DNA of 40,404 bases, taken from assembly GCA_021814475.1 (NCBI GenBank), contig JAKAIE010000022.1:1-40404 (forward strand), in the 5' to 3' direction. Of this stretch, positions 3,616 through 18,091 are shown piece after piece. The translations under genes were made by a program, and so were the position numbers. The notes beneath the pieces are model-generated. The model did not search any database. It was not told where the DNA came from and saw only the letters and a program-made list of their open reading frames with translations. The DNA comes from Nitrospirota bacterium (GTDB lineage Bacteria; Nitrospirota; Thermodesulfovibrionia; Thermodesulfovibrionales; UBA6898). Position 1 is the stretch's first letter, and every line of letters begins with the position of its first letter.

Positions 3616-6144
3616 TTATGAGGGCCATTCACGGGCGATTACCGTGGCGCTGGCCTTGTCTATTCGCCTAAAGGCCTCGATCGAGAACTTCCTGGCGTTG
3701 TATAGCGGGTTTGATATGTCGAAGGTGTCCCCGGTGACCAGGTCGAAATATTCCCAGAATATAGGGAAGGTGACCATCAGCGTAGTGTTCTTACGGTGCA
3801 ACAGTATGTGCGCGACGACGTGATCGGCCATTGTCTGTACCCTTATGCACTCGAACTGGAGCGCAAGGGGCCTGAGGTCGTATTTTGCCTGAGAGATAGC
3901 GTCTGAGGCGATGCTGGTCAAGAGCCAGTCCGACTCGGAGCCCATACGTGAGTAATTCTTCTTCAGGCTGGCGGTTATATCATTGACAATCTCGATGATG
4001 GGGCTATGGCTGAAGGTCATTTTGCCGTATTGGCCGGTGATGTCCTGCGCTGATATGGTTTTTTTCACTGTCGGAGCCGCATCCGGGATCGGGTCTAGGT
4101 ACCACTGGCCTGCCCGAAACTGGATGGTAGAGCGGCATTCGAAGGCCATCCGCTGCAGCCACTGAGATGGCGTGATCTTCTGATCAATCCGGAACGCAAA
4201 CTTATATCCGCCGCTGATCGCGGAGGCATAATACGTGCCGGCGGCGCTGAAGCTGGAGGCGTTGTTCTCGCTGATATTGCGGCCGAACTGCTGGACGATG
4301 AAATGCTTTATGACATAGTCCGGCCGCTCGATGAGATTACCGATGCCCCCATAATTGCCATCAGGGTCGGCATAGCCGTCGACTTTGGCATGAAACCTGT
4401 CGACCATATAGGTCGCAATGACACCCCCAGTCAGAGCGACAGTCCCCGTCTTTGCCGCAAGCCCCGACTTTGATGCTGTGCCAGATTTCGCCGCATTGCC
4501 AGATTTTGAGACACTGCCCGTTTTGGCAGCGCCTCCGGACTTGGTAACGGATCCCGTCTTGGCAGCGCCTCCGGACTTGGTGGCAGATCCTGTTTTCGAT
4601 GCTGCGCCTGACTTGGTCAGCGAGATCGGCCTGGTGCATGTCATAACGGCTTCCTGGAGCGTAAATGTCCAGGTGCCACCACTTCCTGAATTTTTATAGA
4701 GCTCGCAATATGAATCCCACGAGGTGCGGGCCCTTTTGAATGGGCTGGCAACCACATATGTAATAGCACCGGTAGTCTCAATATAGGCAACCGTTGTGTA
4801 ATCTCCTGCAGCACCATGATATATGCGCATTTCTACGCGGGACGAGGGGGCGGCCGTGCAGGTGACCAAAAATGTGTACTGAGCAGTAATATCCGATAAT
4901 GTACCTGACGGAGCCGTTGGCCAGTAGGCTGCTTTATACCCGCTATCCGCCTGATTATATGTCAATGGCGTATTGGCATTGAGTTTTTGGATAAGTTCAT
5001 TGGCCGAAGTACTCACGGCAATGTTATCCGTGACCCCTATCCCGTCATTTACGGCGATAGTATCACTCACCCCACTGCCATCGTTGACGAGGATCGTATC
5101 GCTGACTCCGCTGCCATCGTTGACCGCGATTGTATCGCTGACCGTGATCCCATCATTGACGGCGATAGTATCGTGGACGTCAGTCGTATCCACGACGGCC
5201 ACTGTATTACTCACTGCTGCCACGCTCACGCTGCCGGTAGCCCTGAGCAGGTGTTTCCCTCCCACGACGACGGCGCTGACGCCAGATGTCACACGGAGGA
5301 GTTCCCCCTGGATCTCCGCGTAGATGTCTCCTACGCTTTTCAGTTGATGCCCGGCAAGGAGACTGTCGTACTGGGCTTTTTTCTCCCACGCGGTGGCGGC
5401 CGCCGCATGGGCACTTGCGATCGTGCTGTTCGCGCCGCGGGTTACGCCGGAAAGTACCCCGCTGGACCGGCCTGTAAACGAGATCTCCTCGCTATCAACA
5501 ATTACCGTTCCGGATGCAGGGAATCTGTCGTAGATGCTCAGTTCGATCCCGGTGGTCTGGCTGGCGTCGATCGCGCTTTTAAGAGTAGTACGGGCTCCCC
5601 AGTCAACCCTCAGGGCTGGGACAAGGACGTCTGCCCCATATATGGCAGGTTCGGGCTTTCCGACGTCTTCCCAGGCGTTCGGATAGGTGGTCGTGTCGAT
5701 AATGCGCTGTTTCCAAGTGCGATCGACATTTGCCAACACGGAAGATACCTGGCAGGTAAAACCTGCCAGATCAATGTTTTCGGGCTGGTCCAGGTATCCG
5801 ACGAAGACGACGAGGGGAGTCCCCGCCGCTGTATAGAGCTGTTTTATTGTGCATAAAGCGCCTTCGAACGGGTATGTGTCGCCTATCTCTATCAGGTAAT
5901 TGTACGTCCGGAAGCGGATGTTCTTGAACTGGATCGTGATATTGGCATTGAGAAAGGTGGAGTCGATCCTCTTAATCTCGTCGGAGATCCCGCTGACGGA
6001 CTCGATATATTTCTCATATGTCTGAGAGCCGACGGTGATGTTCCTGTCTGCAAAATAGAGCATCGGGCCGCCATTCTGGAGGGCTATCTCCAGCAGATAG
6101 AAGGGCTCAATACTGCGCCCGTCAAGTTCCCTGTTGAGGGTCAA
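3616..6144 (-). CDS. Tail tip / central hub protein with 12-residue repeats
   Basis: An 842-aa protein encoded last in the tail-tip cluster, starting in a 4-base overlap with the preceding gene. The N-terminal 180 residues and the C-terminal ~230 (with RAGQWYLDPIPDA) resemble the hub or baseplate proteins that follow the tape measure in transposable siphophages. Between them lie two low-complexity arrays: four units like DTIAVNDGSGVS (5029-5172) and five like KSGGAAKTGSVT (4435-4614). Position and size suggest the tail-tip hub that contacts the cell and guides DNA exit. It is separate from the DGR target. The repeats make length variation likely. Confidence 0.7.
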   Translation of the reverse strand: MTLNRELDGRSIEPFYLLEIALQNGGPMLYFADRNITVGSQTYEKYIESVSGISDEIKRIDSTFLNANITIQFKNIRFRTYNYLIEIGDTYPFEGALCTIKQLYTAAGTPLVVFVGYLDQPENIDLAGFTCQVSSVLANVDRTWKQRIIDTTTYPNAWEDVGKPEPAIYGADVLVPALRVDWGARTTLKSAIDASQTTGIELSIYDRFPASGTVIVDSEEISFTGRSSGVLSGVTRGANSTIASAHAAAATAWEKKAQYDSLLAGHQLKSVGDIYAEIQGELLRVTSGVSAVVVGGKHLLRATGSVSVAAVSNTVAVVDTTDVHDTIAVNDGITVSDTIAVNDGSGVSDTILVNDGSGVSDTIAVNDGIGVTDNIAVSTSANELIQKLNANTPLTYNQADSGYKAAYWPTAPSGTLSDITAQYTFLVTCTAAPSSRVEMRIYHGAAGDYTTVAYIETTGAITYVVASPFKRARTSWDSYCELYKNSGSGGTWTFTLQEAVMTCTRPISLTKSGAASKTGSATKSGGAAKTGSVTKSGGAAKTGSVSKSGNAAKSGTASKSGLAAKTGTVALTGGVIATYMVDRFHAKVDGYADPDGNYGGIGNLIERPDYVIKHFIVQQFGRNISENNASSFSAAGTYYASAISGGYKFAFRIDQKITPSQWLQRMAFECRSTIQFRAGQWYLDPIPDAAPTVKKTISAQDITGQYGKMTFSHSPIIEIVNDITASLKKNYSRMGSESDWLLTSIASDAISQAKYDLRPLALQFECIRVQTMADHVVAHILLHRKNTTLMVTFPIFWEYFDLVTGDTFDISNPLYNARKFSIEAFRRIDKASATVIAREWPS
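4435..4614 (-). repeat. Five tandem 36-bp units in the hub gene (KSGxAAKTGSVx)
   Basis: Five in-frame 36-bp units encode degenerate 12-residue repeats of the form KSGGAAKTGSVT. They are rich in Gly, Ala, Ser, Thr and Lys, as in flexible or fibrous linkers. Units 2 and 3 are almost identical in DNA, pointing to recent duplication or homogenisation. Confidence 0.85.
5029..5172 (-). repeat. Four tandem 36-bp units in the hub gene (DTIAVNDGxxVS)
   Basis: Four in-frame 36-bp units encode DTIAVNDG(I/S)(T/G)V(S/T), followed by a partial fifth (DNIAV). The alternation of beta-prone and turn residues suggests a short beta-solenoid-like or strand-turn stack. The period equals that of the second array in the same gene. 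Confidence 0.85.
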
Positions 6145-14070: not shown

Positions 14071-14220
14071 TTACCTCATCACCGTAGCCAGCGCGATCAA
14101 TGAAATAGCAAACAAGGCTCCCGAAATAGCAAGGCCCGAAAGAAGGATGACCTTCATCCCGCCTTCCCAGCTGGGGATATCAACATAGACGGCCTTCTTT
14201 TTCCAGTTGATGGATATCAC
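14071..14220 (-). CDS. Small single-pass membrane protein, 49 aa
   Basis: Starts at GTG 14220, overlapping the upstream stop (GTGA), and ends at 14071 just before the gp37-like start. About 22 residues of soluble N-terminus (WKKKAVYVDIPSWEGG) are followed by one hydrophobic helix (VILLSGLAISGALFAISLIALA). Coupling to both neighbours supports it as real. Function unknown. Confidence 0.6.
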   Translation of the reverse strand: MISINWKKKAVYVDIPSWEGGMKVILLSGLAISGALFAISLIALATVMR

Positions 14221-14501
14221 CGGATCATTTCCTCGGCCTCGGCAACGGTCAGGCCAACGCGGAAGAGTGTTGAAGTAGAATCCTCTCTCAGTTCCTGCTG
14301 AGTGCGGATACCATCCGAATCAACTACCCGATGCGTTGCGTCCTCTATCCCCGCGGCCCCATCAGCCAGGTCACCGGTCGAATACCAGCTGTATCTGTTA
14401 TCCAGCCAGTCGCGCAGCTTTGCCATCATCTCTGCGGGATATTCCTGCAGCAGGTAAAGCACGTCGGCCTTTGTGTTTATGTGCGTCGGAAAACCTTTCA
14501 T
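14217..14501 (-). CDS. Phage protein of unknown function, 94 aa
   Basis: The start at 14501 has AAGGAGGA nine bases upstream. N-terminal KADVLYLLQEYPAEMMAKLRDWLDNRY looks like a helical pair, and the C-terminal part is acidic and polar (LTVAEAEEMI). It follows the 101-aa DGR-linked gene in the same operon. No family is assigned. Confidence 0.62.
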   Translation of the reverse strand: MKGFPTHINTKADVLYLLQEYPAEMMAKLRDWLDNRYSWYSTGDLADGAAGIEDATHRVVDSDGIRTQQELREDSTSTLFRVGLTVAEAEEMIR

Positions 14502-14510
14502 CGTTCCTCC

Positions 14511-14816
14511 TTACGAAAATGTGTAGTACCTGTCGATCTTTTTGATCGTTGCCATAAACGGGATCTCGGCTTTGTATTTCTCCATCTGCTCGGTGAGAAC
14601 TGTGGATCCCGTAAAGAGCACATATCTCTGTCCGTCAATCTCGAATTGAAGCGTGAGGCATTTGGGAGAGCCGTCCTTTTTGAAACGGGAGGTCCTCACC
14701 TTCAGACCGACTACTGTGATCTCTTTGTTGATGATCTCATCGAGCCGCATTTTTGCGCCATCGAGGGGCAGGCTGTCCTTGTCCGCAAACTCGCTGAAAC
14801 GCTTAACCTGCTGCAC
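14511..14816 (-). CDS. DGR-linked beta-rich small protein (non-Avd), 101 aa
   Basis: Starts at GTG 14816 with AGGGGG seven bases upstream, overlapping the 3' end of the reverse transcriptase by 14 bases. It is therefore co-translated with it. The central sequence (ITVVGLKVRTSRF, KCLTLQFEIDG, YVLFTGSTVL, FMATIKKIDRYYTF) reads as five alternating strands with basic residues, like a small OB-type nucleic-acid-binding fold. The known DGR accessory Avd is an all-helical bundle, which this is not. A role as a single-strand-binding or cDNA-chaperone cofactor for retrohoming is an inference from coupling and fold impression only. Confidence 0.6.
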   Translation of the reverse strand: MQQVKRFSEFADKDSLPLDGAKMRLDEIINKEITVVGLKVRTSRFKKDGSPKCLTLQFEIDGQRYVLFTGSTVLTEQMEKYKAEIPFMATIKKIDRYYTFS

Positions 14817-15816
14817 AGATACCCCCTGCGATCTCGGCGATCCTGACGGACCGGGCCAGATTATGGGTATTGCCCCATTTGAGCCAGCCCATAATGGAGG
14901 CTACGGATGACCGCATCTGGTCGGGTGTTATCCTGCCAGATCTCAGCAGCCCCGGCAGCTCCCTGAGCCGTCTTTTGATCCTTGTGGCCGTTGACTTCCT
15001 GAGCAGCAGGTGATCGGCAAAGTGTTTGTAGCCGAGGAAGTCCACTCCCTGGGAGGTTGGATATACCTCGCAGCGGCTCATGAGGAACTTCAGTTTGTCC
15101 TGGAGGAAGGCCTTTATGAGGGCTGCGGTCTCATGCAGCCAGCCTTTGTCATCATGGAAGACGAGGAAGTCGTCGCAATAGCGGATGTAATGCCTGGCTT
15201 TGCGGAAATGCTTCAGGAACTGGTCCAGCTCGTTCATGTAGAGATTGCCGAACCACTGGCTTGTATAGTTGCCGATCGGCACGTTCTTCCCTCCGCCGAT
15301 GCTGTAGATGATATCCTGTAGCAGCCAGATAGTGTCAGGGCACTTGATCTTCCTCTTGACGATCGAGAAGAGCACGTCATGATTGACGGATGGGTAGAAC
15401 TTCGAAATGTCGCACTGAAGAACGTATTTGTTGCGCCTGACCATCTCCATTGTGCGACGGCTGCCGGCGTGGATCCCCTTGCCTTTGATGCATGCGTAAG
15501 AGTCGTGGATAAAGAGCCTCTGCCAGATCGGTTCCAGGACGTTCATCAGTGCATGATGGATGATCCTGTCCGGGGCGAAGGGCAGGATGAAGATCTCCCG
15601 GGTCTTGGGCTCGGTGATGATCTTTGTCTCATAGGGAGAGGTGTGAAACGTCTTGTTCAGAAGAAGATCCCGGATCAGCAGCAGATTGCCCTCGATGTCC
15701 TGGTCAAAGGCCTTGATTGCCCTCTGCCAGCTTTTTCCCTTGCGGGCGTTCCTGTAGGCAAGACGGAGGTTCTCCATGCCGGCTATTTCGGTGAAGAGAT
15801 CGCCGTGGCGCTTCAT
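14803..15816 (-). CDS. DGR reverse transcriptase
   Basis: A 337-aa reverse transcriptase of the group II-related DGR clade. Visible motifs in order: LPFAPDRIIHHAL (RT2 region, 78-90); CDISKFYPSVNH with catalytic D136; the DGR hallmark IGNYTSQ at 181-187; RYCDDF with D215 and D216; and GVDFLGYKHF near 257-266. It has no maturase or endonuclease domain, as expected for DGRs. The template repeat lies 120 bases upstream, a spacing that leaves room for the priming RNA. It would copy the template RNA with errors at adenines and feed the cDNA into the target gene. The Shine-Dalgarno site is weak. Confidence 0.96.
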   Translation of the reverse strand: MKRHGDLFTEIAGMENLRLAYRNARKGKSWQRAIKAFDQDIEGNLLLIRDLLLNKTFHTSPYETKIITEPKTREIFILPFAPDRIIHHALMNVLEPIWQRLFIHDSYACIKGKGIHAGSRRTMEMVRRNKYVLQCDISKFYPSVNHDVLFSIVKRKIKCPDTIWLLQDIIYSIGGGKNVPIGNYTSQWFGNLYMNELDQFLKHFRKARHYIRYCDDFLVFHDDKGWLHETAALIKAFLQDKLKFLMSRCEVYPTSQGVDFLGYKHFADHLLLRKSTATRIKRRLRELPGLLRSGRITPDQMRSSVASIMGWLKWGNTHNLARSVRIAEIAGGICAAG

Positions 15817-15936
15817 TGTATCTGAGACGGGTGACGTTCGCTTGCGCTACTGGCCACCCGCCTCCTCCGTAATGTATTCTGCCTTTCGGCAAGGCCGTCA
15901 GATCCAGCCAGGAGTTTCGCTCGACCAGATCCTGTA

Positions 15937-16050
15937 TCCGCCGCGAACCGCCTGCCGATATTCGTACTCGTATTCCAGCGCGCGTTATTCGCATTCCGGG
16001 CGCGGGAGCCGCAATTCGTCGCATTATTCCAATTCGCGCCGGCAAGCAGC
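15937..16050 (-). repeat. DGR template repeat (TR)
   Basis: 114 bp aligned without gaps to the variable repeat at an offset of 199. Of 25 template-strand adenines, 12 differ in the variable copy; no other base differs. Read in the target frame it holds nine AAY (Asn) codons, the usual DGR choice because mutated AAY cannot give a stop. Its 3' part on the minus strand (15938-15952) has no adenine and is G/C only, as expected for the initiation-of-homology segment. It is probably transcribed with the 120-base spacer to the reverse transcriptase. Confidence 0.97.
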
Positions 16051-16110
16051 CGCTGATCTGACAGCCCACACTTGAGCATTGTGCGCCCCGTGTTCCGTGT
16101 TATCGGTTTT

Positions 16111-16126
16111 GCGTGCAGCATCACGC
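16111..16126 (-). other. Short hairpin just past the variable repeat
   Basis: GCGTG, a 6-base loop and CACGC form a perfect 5-bp stem beginning at the last base of the target stop codon, 9 bases beyond the variable repeat. Several DGRs have a hairpin or cruciform at this place that promotes retrohoming. The stem here is shorter than the Bordetella one, so this is a candidate only. Confidence 0.4.
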
Positions 16127-17682
16127 TATACCGGCTCCGCCGCGAACCGCCCGCCGATAGTCGTACTCGTATACCAGCGCGCGTAAGCCGCAAACCGGGC
16201 GCGGGAGCCGCAATACGTCGCAATAGTCCAACTCGCGCCGGCAAGCAGCTTTGTGTCTCCCAAACTGCCCTGCCTATACAGCTGCCCCTTCGACCCCGGC
16301 AATGCATACCAGGAAAAGGCCGGAGTTGTAGAGGCCAGGTCGAGCGTTCCATTAGTGCTCGTCGGGCTGGTGAATTCGAGGCGATTGTGAGTTACGTCGT
16401 CATATTTGACAGCGACGCCGAGGGCAGCAGCATTTGAGGCATATTTGATCTGCAACAAAAACGCCGGATTACTGGTTGCAACATAGCAGTCTTGTCCGAG
16501 GACTGTATTGTTACAGAGCATGCGGCCAGGCTGTGTGGCGTCCTCATCAAAATATAACGGCAACCCTGTTGCTGCGTTGATATCGTTGGTGATCTGGACA
16601 ATATTGTTAGTGCCGAATGCCACAGTTTTATTAGCTCCCGCAGTGGAGAGGTTGGCGCAGAGATATGGCGTGCCGTCGCTAAAAAATTTGATATACAACT
16701 GATTGCCTTCCGGGACTGCCACGTGGGTGATCGTAGCTGTTTTGGACGCTGCAGTCACCGAGCCATCTGTGCCCAGCTGATAACCGTTTTCGTCCAGCCA
16801 CTGATACATAGCCCCGCAGCAGTCCTCCGCCCCCTCATACGAAATCATCCGGCGTCCCGCCGTATCTACATGCCCGCCCGTAGTGACCGGGTCCGCAGAT
16901 CCGGCTATGTTGGTCTGCTCATTAGAGCCTGCGGCATATCCCTGGAACTCTCTATCTTTTGTAAGCCGTTTGTTTACTGCCGCACCGTCATCGACGAAAT
17001 CCATGTGATTGCGTGTATCGCTGATAGTCGCTCCGTATGCAGAGCTTGTGTTTGCAGCAGTCCCTGATGCGAGATAAATGTCCACCCAGGCCCCGCCTGC
17101 CAAAAACGAATAAAACATACCCTCTGGATTGCGATTACGCGGCTTCCACTTGAGGTCCCATATGGAATTGGGCAAGACATCTCCGGTTTCAAAATCCTTC
17201 AGCGGATGATCTGCCCCAAGTGCAAGCGTCACCCCCGACGTAGTGATGCTCGTCCCTTTGCAAAGGCAGTGGAAACCCCCGATTTTCCTGGAGTTGCTGC
17301 TGGTGTACCCCGTGGGTACCGTAGAATTCGCAGAGAGCACGAACTTAGGGATCCCGCCGGGCTGCCGGCAGACGTAGAGATATATGTCCTTGCCGGCCCT
17401 GTTCGCCGCTACCGTGAGATCAACAGGAGTCAGTGTGTCCCAGTTCGCTGCAACGGAGAGATCCATAGCCTGTTGAGCCGTCAGGGCAAACCCGAGATCC
17501 GATATGTTGACGGTCAGCCGTGAAGGGCTCAATAGTGTGTACCTGTCAGCCGCAATACTGCTGCCTTTGAGTGCCCACCTGATATCCCTTTCGTAATGAG
17601 CCGGGAGCGCGGCCATCTGTGCAAGGAAGGACTTACCCCCGTCGTCTTTGTGCCACCCGTCTGCGCTGCTTTTCCAGCCCAT
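16126..17682 (-). CDS. DGR target protein (C-type-lectin-like variable C-terminus)
   Basis: A 518-aa protein starting 2 bases after the preceding stop. The N-terminal ~200 residues are mixed and tail-protein-like. Around 290-310 is GRRMISYEGAEDCCGAMYQW, a motif often seen just ahead of the lectin domain in DGR targets. The variable C-terminus (479-518) reads LLAGASW...CGSRAR...ARWY...IGGRFAAEPV, where the Trp, Gly-Ser-Arg and GGRF scaffold is fixed and ten residues vary from the template. There is no signal peptide. It is most likely a virion-borne receptor-binding or tropism protein, though it sits in the head-tail joining cluster rather than among tail fibres. Confidence 0.9.
   Translation of the reverse strand: MGWKSSADGWHKDDGGKSFLAQMAALPAHYERDIRWALKGSSIAADRYTLLSPSRLTVNISDLGFALTAQQAMDLSVAANWDTLTPVDLTVAANRAGKDIYLYVCRQPGGIPKFVLSANSTVPTGYTSSNSRKIGGFHCLCKGTSITTSGVTLALGADHPLKDFETGDVLPNSIWDLKWKPRNRNPEGMFYSFLAGGAWVDIYLASGTAANTSSAYGATISDTRNHMDFVDDGAAVNKRLTKDREFQGYAAGSNEQTNIAGSADPVTTGGHVDTAGRRMISYEGAEDCCGAMYQWLDENGYQLGTDGSVTAASKTATITHVAVPEGNQLYIKFFSDGTPYLCANLSTAGANKTVAFGTNNIVQITNDINAATGLPLYFDEDATQPGRMLCNNTVLGQDCYVATSNPAFLLQIKYASNAAALGVAVKYDDVTHNRLEFTSPTSTNGTLDLASTTPAFSWYALPGSKGQLYRQGSLGDTKLLAGASWTIATYCGSRARFAAYARWYTSTTIGGRFAAEPV
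16136..16249 (-). repeat. DGR variable repeat (VR)
   Basis: 114 bp at the 3' end of the target gene. Differences from the template, on the coding strand, are A to T six times, A to G three times and A to C three times. All nine Asn codons became Ser, Thr, Ile, Tyr, Phe, Ala, Tyr, Tyr and Thr, and one Arg became Gly. Fixed bases include every C, G and T of the template. Confidence 0.97.
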
Positions 17683-17683
17683 A

Positions 17684-18091
17684 TCAGTTGCACCTCAGCT
17701 TGATCGATGCGACGGTGCCGGCAGTGATCGTGCTCGTTACGTAGAGCCGCGAGGTCTGGCCGTCGAACTGGTACTTGAGCGTCTCGGCCGTGGCCGAGGA
17801 GATCGCCGCCCCGTCGATGGTTGATATCACATCCCCATCATCGTTGATCGTGAATGAGATATTGACAGTAGCCCCGGACGTAGTGATCAGCAACGATTTC
17901 GGCCCGTGGCAGTACTGGACGTTGACGGCTGTGTCGCTGTCACCCGTCGCTGCCTGGTTCGTGGCGAGGGTCCACTCAAATGCCGTGGGACGACTGGGGG
18001 GATTGAGGTCCTGAAAGTTGACGTCCGCTGCCGCGGCCATCGAGCCGGGCACAAGAAGCAGTAATACAAGCATAATCATAAGATGTTTCAT
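17684..18091 (-). CDS. Sec-exported phage protein next to the DGR target, 135 aa
   Basis: Starts at ATG 18091, overlapping the gp36-like stop. A signal peptide is clear (MIMLVLLLLVPGSMAAAA, cleavage near residue 22). The mature ~113 residues are beta-prone and Thr/Ser/Ala-rich with two cysteines (one in QYCHGPKS, one at the C-terminus in KLRCN). It directly precedes the DGR target in the same operon. A periplasmic or surface protein made during the lytic cycle is the plain reading; an odd virion protein is the alternative. No family recognised. Confidence 0.7.
   Translation of the reverse strand: MKHLMIMLVLLLLVPGSMAAAADVNFQDLNPPSRPTAFEWTLATNQAATGDSDTAVNVQYCHGPKSLLITTSGATVNISFTINDDGDVISTIDGAAISSATAETLKYQFDGQTSRLYVTSTITAGTVASIKLRCN

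Follow-up and report, generated by a model that had tools for sequence, protein, structure and literature searches.

The window analysed here is a 40,404-nt stretch of a Nitrospirota bacterium genome (contig JAKAIE010000022.1), in which genes of a Mu-like prophage, namely MuA (phrog_310), MuB, Gam, terminase, Mu portal, gp36 and gp37, accompany a cassette that is almost certainly a diversity-generating retroelement (DGR). The cassette is read from the minus strand in the order target gene with its variable repeat (VR), template repeat (TR), reverse transcriptase (RT), and two small genes, of 101 and 94 aa. An earlier note on the window had described a complete DGR inside a Mu-like phage; the phage setting is borne out by MuA, MuB, Gam, the Mu portal, gp36 and gp37, and "complete" holds for the core parts, which are all there, but not for Avd, of which there is no gene. 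The 101-aa gene beside the RT, which lies at the note's left boundary (14511) and drew no comment there, has a product that resembles an OB fold and is the main subject of this report.

Adenine-specific variation in the window and in related loci

The VR (16136-16249, minus strand) occupies codons 478-516 at the 3′ end of the 518-codon target gene and is separated by 85 nt from the TR (15937-16050, minus strand). Realignment returned the coordinates and counts of the earlier note: the repeats align over 114 nt without a gap, and all 12 differences (six A>T, three A>G, and three A>C) fall on the 25 adenines of a template that also contains 40 G, 30 C, and 19 T in the minus-strand reading, a confinement with a hypergeometric p of 9.4e-10. 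Codon comparison likewise agrees that all nine AAY codons are changed (484, 486, 487, 490, 497, 499, 500, 504, and 508), as is AGG511, giving ten residue changes and no stops; by codon enumeration, no A>N change at an adenine-bearing TR codon can create a stop. Because the VR is mutated relative to the TR, the past retrohoming proposed in the note is supported. The pair is single-copy in the 3.15-Mb host genome. Homology between the repeats ends at GCGGA, which is followed by GCC in the VR and by TAC in the TR, a pattern common to close relatives, at the 3′ ends where the initiation of mutagenic homing sites (IMH of the VR, IMH* of the TR) would be expected. Just 3′ of the VR, a short hairpin with a 5-bp stem (GCGTG-ATGCTG-CACGC; 16111-16126, minus strand) is a weak candidate for a homing hairpin; stems of at least 6 bp follow the VR in 25% of related loci vs. 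6% of shuffles.

RT-based searches yielded 80 viral and 37 genomic loci, and of the 119 sequences made up of the window and the RT-anchored loci, 97 show a TR/VR pair. Across 86 distinct pairs, 62% of template adenines are changed, whereas the shares for C, G, and T are 0.6%, 0.7%, and 2.1%, far from the equal rates that the note had named as a refutation; the non-A changes lie mostly at alignment edges and repeat ends. Among sister phages that share one TR exactly and differ hardly or not at all upstream, 342 of 350 VR differences fall at template adenines, although these pairs are not independent of one another. Since different VRs stand on identical TRs in these sister loci, the cassette lineage appears, from sequence comparison, to diversify in nature, and the window's own copy presumably does likewise. 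A relic, with a VR mutated long ago in an element now dead, is very unlikely. The cassette has one genome copy only, and the searches of relatives found no second phage isolate with the window's TR; against this, all open reading frames are intact, the TR carries no disabling change, nothing is missing from the OB gene, the motifs of the RT, or the RNA structure described below, and close relatives diversify. The window copy would then probably still be active.

The RT (337 aa; 14803-15816, minus strand) contains GNYTSQ, in place of QGxxxSP, and YCDD, the two motifs read in the earlier note, and matches phrog_1423 at 2.8e-116. If the repeat stood by chance beside the RT of a group II intron or retron, the 106 bits scored against TIGR04416 and the weak matches to retrons and defence-associated RTs (DRT) would be in keeping; all such scores are far under the curated cut-offs, however (300 bits for TIGR04416; 62 bits against a cut-off of 235 for NF038233), the adenine bias has p ~1e-9, and a comparable TR/VR pair recurs in 97/119 sequences. 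The protein groups with RTs that have TR/VR pairs of their own; a placement in group II introns or retrons, which the note gave as a refutation, was not what the analysis returned. The TR/VR pairs of relatives refute the chance repeat, to which we attach a vanishingly small probability.

An OB-fold-like protein kept with the reverse transcriptase

Next to the RT lies orf101 (14511-14816, minus strand), which starts inside the RT stop with a 14-nt overlap and encodes 101 aa. Its AlphaFold2 model (pLDDT 89) has five strands in b-b-b-a-b-b order, which is OB topology, and the protein matches no Pfam family, no PDB sequence, and no known single-stranded DNA-binding (SSB) or OB family, with weak matches to one unnamed PHROG. 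When the model was compared with viral proteins by Foldseek, RTs were the top matches (E 6.6e-7 and 7.6e-6), with the RT of the crAss-like phage cr7_1 lower. The same domain is fused to the C terminus of the hankyphage RT (E 2.4e-11; hhalign 97.7%) and to the RT in two further loci, L104 and L105 (E ~1e-19). The C-terminal extensions of crAss RTs gave no significant sequence match to the OB domain, structural support being confined to cr7_1.

The gene also travels with the RT. By tblastn, orf101 is kept with the RT in 63 loci, while flanking phage genes are kept only in the closest relative, L002. The family search used a narrow alignment (A3); the broad one (A1) had no conserved stretch, and a single-protein query led to one locus. 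Anchored on orf101, the search found a DGR-type RT upstream in 75 of 80 viral loci, and four of the other five are contig ends. An OB profile iterated on the open reading frames of DGR loci only, with E-values that refer to that small set, detects an OB-like gene in 92 of 118 RT-anchored loci. Twelve of these (L096-L102, L106, L109-L111, and L113), mostly Bacteroidota and Bacillota genomes, have the gene between VR and TR, where BPP-1 carries avd. Ungapped comparison of the two close pairs that were usable, the others being saturated or misaligned, gave a dN/dS of 0.02-0.03 for orf101, indicating strong purifying selection.

We regard the OB protein as quite probably a functional partner of the RT, and several observations count against that view. 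The matches of the orf101 model to OB folds in the PDB are weak (best E 0.087, TM ~0.45); many of the weak PDB matches are to what we take to be OB domains (HIN200, RUVBL DII, RPA). At locus L158, where orf101 (5001-5294) has room on both sides, no DGR RT was detected; this could be an orphan OB gene or one that accompanies a very diverged RT. Four named DGR phages, vir215, Epona, Arawn, and Perkons, have neither Avd nor OB. In 26 of the 118 RT-anchored loci the OB gene went undetected; some of these elements may do without it or have lost it, or it may have diverged too far to be recognized. These 26 loci, together with the frequent retention of the neighboring 94-aa gene (orf94) as well, would also suit an ordinary DGR whose OB-like protein is a passenger of the phage tail or lysis modules and plays no part in diversification. 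That account seems to us distinctly improbable: the position of the OB gene shifts, from between VR and TR to right after the RT or one or two genes later, while its link to the RT persists; the flanking phage genes are unconserved beyond L002; and the same domain occurs fused to RTs.

What the partner would act on is a separate matter. Proteins, and not nucleic acids alone, are among the ligands of OB folds, and no known SSB family is matched by this one, so the domain could be a protein-protein adaptor that binds no nucleic acid itself and brings to the RT, for example, a factor of host replication or recombination. We consider this unlikely; the RT served by the domain would have RNA and cDNA as its products. 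Binding of TR-RNA or cDNA by the OB protein is a proposition we hold in even balance, and the protein would presumably be needed for diversification.

Absence of Avd and a conserved spacer RNA

Avd was sought with the bAvd family PF22296, which replaced a BPP-1 Avd query that matched only itself. PF22296 detects Avd in BPP-1, Magia, Bacuni F2, ACA1, VP58.5, and BalMu-1; in LPPA56 the match is weak. It found no bAvd in the whole host genome, with four Avd-carrying phages as positive controls, none in 34 related viral contigs, and none in ANMV-1, vir525, hankyphage, crAss LMMB, cr55_1, Versailles, or LoVEphage. In hankyphage and ANMV-1, the small open reading frames that separate the target from the RT, likely the published "Avd," do not match PF22296, and on sequence grounds these size-based labels look wrong; the hankyphage assignment rested on isoelectric point and molecular weight only (PMC6199706). 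The BPP-1 DGR, when reconstituted, cannot do without Avd (PMC12875486). Among DGR RTs in complete genomes, 62% co-occur with Avd and ~38% do not (PMC8934634), and crAss-like DGRs have been reported without avd (PMC7290462).

In the RT tree, Avd-bearing RTs form one group (SH-aLRT 92), and OB-bearing RTs make up most of the remainder, their clustering far exceeding that of shuffles; ANMV-1, which has OB, is placed next to the Avd group. The outgroup is an RVT_1 protein of the host genome and not a group II RT, and the rooting is unreliable, so that OB may be either ancestral or a repeated gain. Catalytic motifs differ by partner, being mostly YCDD or YADD in OB-type RTs and mostly YMDD or YVDD in Avd-type RTs. 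The outgroup protein, the second RVT_1 protein of the host genome (G000; contig C54:3072-3554, L216), has 560 aa and a YRDD motif, is unlike both DGR and group II RTs, and is perhaps a defence RT.

Between TR and RT, the window encodes a conserved structured spacer RNA (15812-15947, minus strand). Spacers of 110-160 nt at this position share the motifs ACTCCTGGCTGGA, GGCAAAATACA, CGGAG, and TAGTA and a long covarying hairpin; in the first two helices, the TR 3′ end (GATACAGG) pairs with CCTGGCTGG. In an alignment of 24 sequences, 94.7% of cells are paired and double changes occur in 16 of 25 pairs, and the covariation score was reached by none of 500 shuffles; the window's own spacer has a folding z of -3.45. 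The covariance model scores 125.7 bits in the window, its single match in the host genome, and finds ~38 further loci, mostly orf101-anchored, with the significant cases always just 5′ of the RT. It also matches vir525, ANMV-1 (3e-4), and cr55_1 (6e-5), with no match in BPP-1, and an Rfam scan near the cassette returned no family, its matches being far below cut-off. In BPP-1, the folded spacer brings in RT-Avd and serves as the primer of cDNA (PMC12875486); by analogy, the spacer RNA of the window should position the RT at the TR end.

Set against known systems, the window cassette shares with BPP-1 (mtd-avd-TR-brt) an Mtd-type tail gene that ends in the VR, a TR and then RT, adenine mutagenesis, and a TR-RT spacer; unlike the window, BPP-1 has Avd (PF22296) between VR and TR, no OB protein, a YMDD rather than a YCDD RT, and a spacer to which our model does not extend. 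The Bacteroides hankyphage p00 (PMC6199706, PMC12135933) is likewise Mu-like (phrog_310) with a tail-protein DGR, no bAvd, and an OB domain, but there the OB domain is fused to the RT C terminus and the RT is very divergent. The archaeal virus ANMV-1 (PMC4372165) has, like the window, a separate OB gene directly after the RT (AJP62065.1, 38% identical) and a matching spacer RNA; its host domain, its YMDD RT, and a 64-aa open reading frame between target and RT, with no bAvd match, set it apart. The crAss-like phages LMMB, cr55_1, and cr7_1 (PMC7290462) share the reported lack of avd and the target-VR-TR-RT order, and their RTs bear a C-terminal extension, structurally OB-like in cr7_1; they differ in that the extension is fused rather than separate and matches weakly in sequence. 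The Caudoviricetes virus vir525 (Methanosarcinales) has an RT 63% identical, an OB gene, an orf94-like gene, a phrog_11262 target, and the spacer RNA; it differs in having no MuA-type transposase.

Target gene, prophage setting and proposed mechanism

The target gene (16126-17682, minus strand) encodes a 518-aa Mtd-like receptor-binding tail protein with a C-terminal variable domain of C-type-lectin type (Pfam mtd_2nd, 1.2e-16; phrog_11262, tail, 9.5e-52). The note's view of a C-type-lectin-like end is backed by sequence (PDB Mtd 1yu4, E 1.7e-12) and by predicted fold, the AlphaFold2 model (pLDDT 78.5) matching Mtd (E 4.6e-18) and TaqVP (1.4e-5) in Foldseek, both of them DGR variable proteins. 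An insert of ~150 residues, missing from shorter relatives, separates the two conserved halves of the protein. Directly 5′ of the target, a 135-aa protein with a signal-peptide-like N terminus (17684-18091, minus strand) is common only to L002 and, as judged from that distribution, is outside the mobile cassette. On the other side, orf94 (14217-14501, minus strand), a 94-aa protein of no named family and often next in the cassette (alignment A2), has relatives in 67 of 118 RT-anchored loci, where it follows the OB gene or, where OB is missing, the RT directly. Speculatively, it is a candidate assembly chaperone of the target. A longer, 233-aa form occurs in L008 and L027. BPP-1 bbp4, alike by eye, was rejected as a homologue of orf94 (hhalign 3.5%; no match in the iterated hidden Markov model). 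At L044 (4903-5737), an 834-nt VR-TR gap holds an open reading frame of ~190 aa, giving a target-distant TR in an OB-type cassette.

Hankyphage had already provided an example of a Mu-like phage with a DGR. Because many phage contigs that lack a MuA gene, some of them fragments, carry the cassette type of the window too, it has probably been exchanged between phage types, to go by gene content. The host genome has three more matches to MuA-like transposases (contigs C125, C21, and C30), and other Mu-like elements are likely present there.

The explanation we favor, and consider likely as a whole, is that the window carries a DGR of an Avd-less branch, in a Mu-like prophage, with the OB protein as the partner of its RT. 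In this scheme the TR and the structured spacer 3′ of it would be transcribed together; the RT would start cDNA close to the 3′ end of the TR, a stretch kept in a helix by the spacer, and would misread template adenines as it copies. The mutated cDNA would then replace the VR at the tip of the Mtd-like tail protein. The OB protein would take the role that Avd has in BPP-1, most likely by binding template RNA or cDNA in the RT complex, or else by passing cDNA to the VR. A broader proposal, for which we see the chances as about equal either way, is that the accessory so far missing from Avd-less DGRs is a dedicated OB-fold protein, encoded next to the RT or as part of it, which acts on TR-RNA or cDNA in Avd's place and recurs in archaeal viruses as well as in the phages of many phyla of bacteria. 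Literature searches, incomplete in coverage and with priority not fully checked, returned no DGR paper describing an OB-fold partner, and a dedicated OB-fold accessory, in trans or fused, looks to be a new part of the element.

The OB protein speaks to the questions of how Avd-less DGRs work and how cDNA enters the VR. Gene order, co-occurrence, and fusion all link it to the RT, and it is a concrete and easily deletable accessory candidate. The hankyphage fusion puts its domain within a system known to be active, and the conserved spacer RNA offers a search model for related DGRs.

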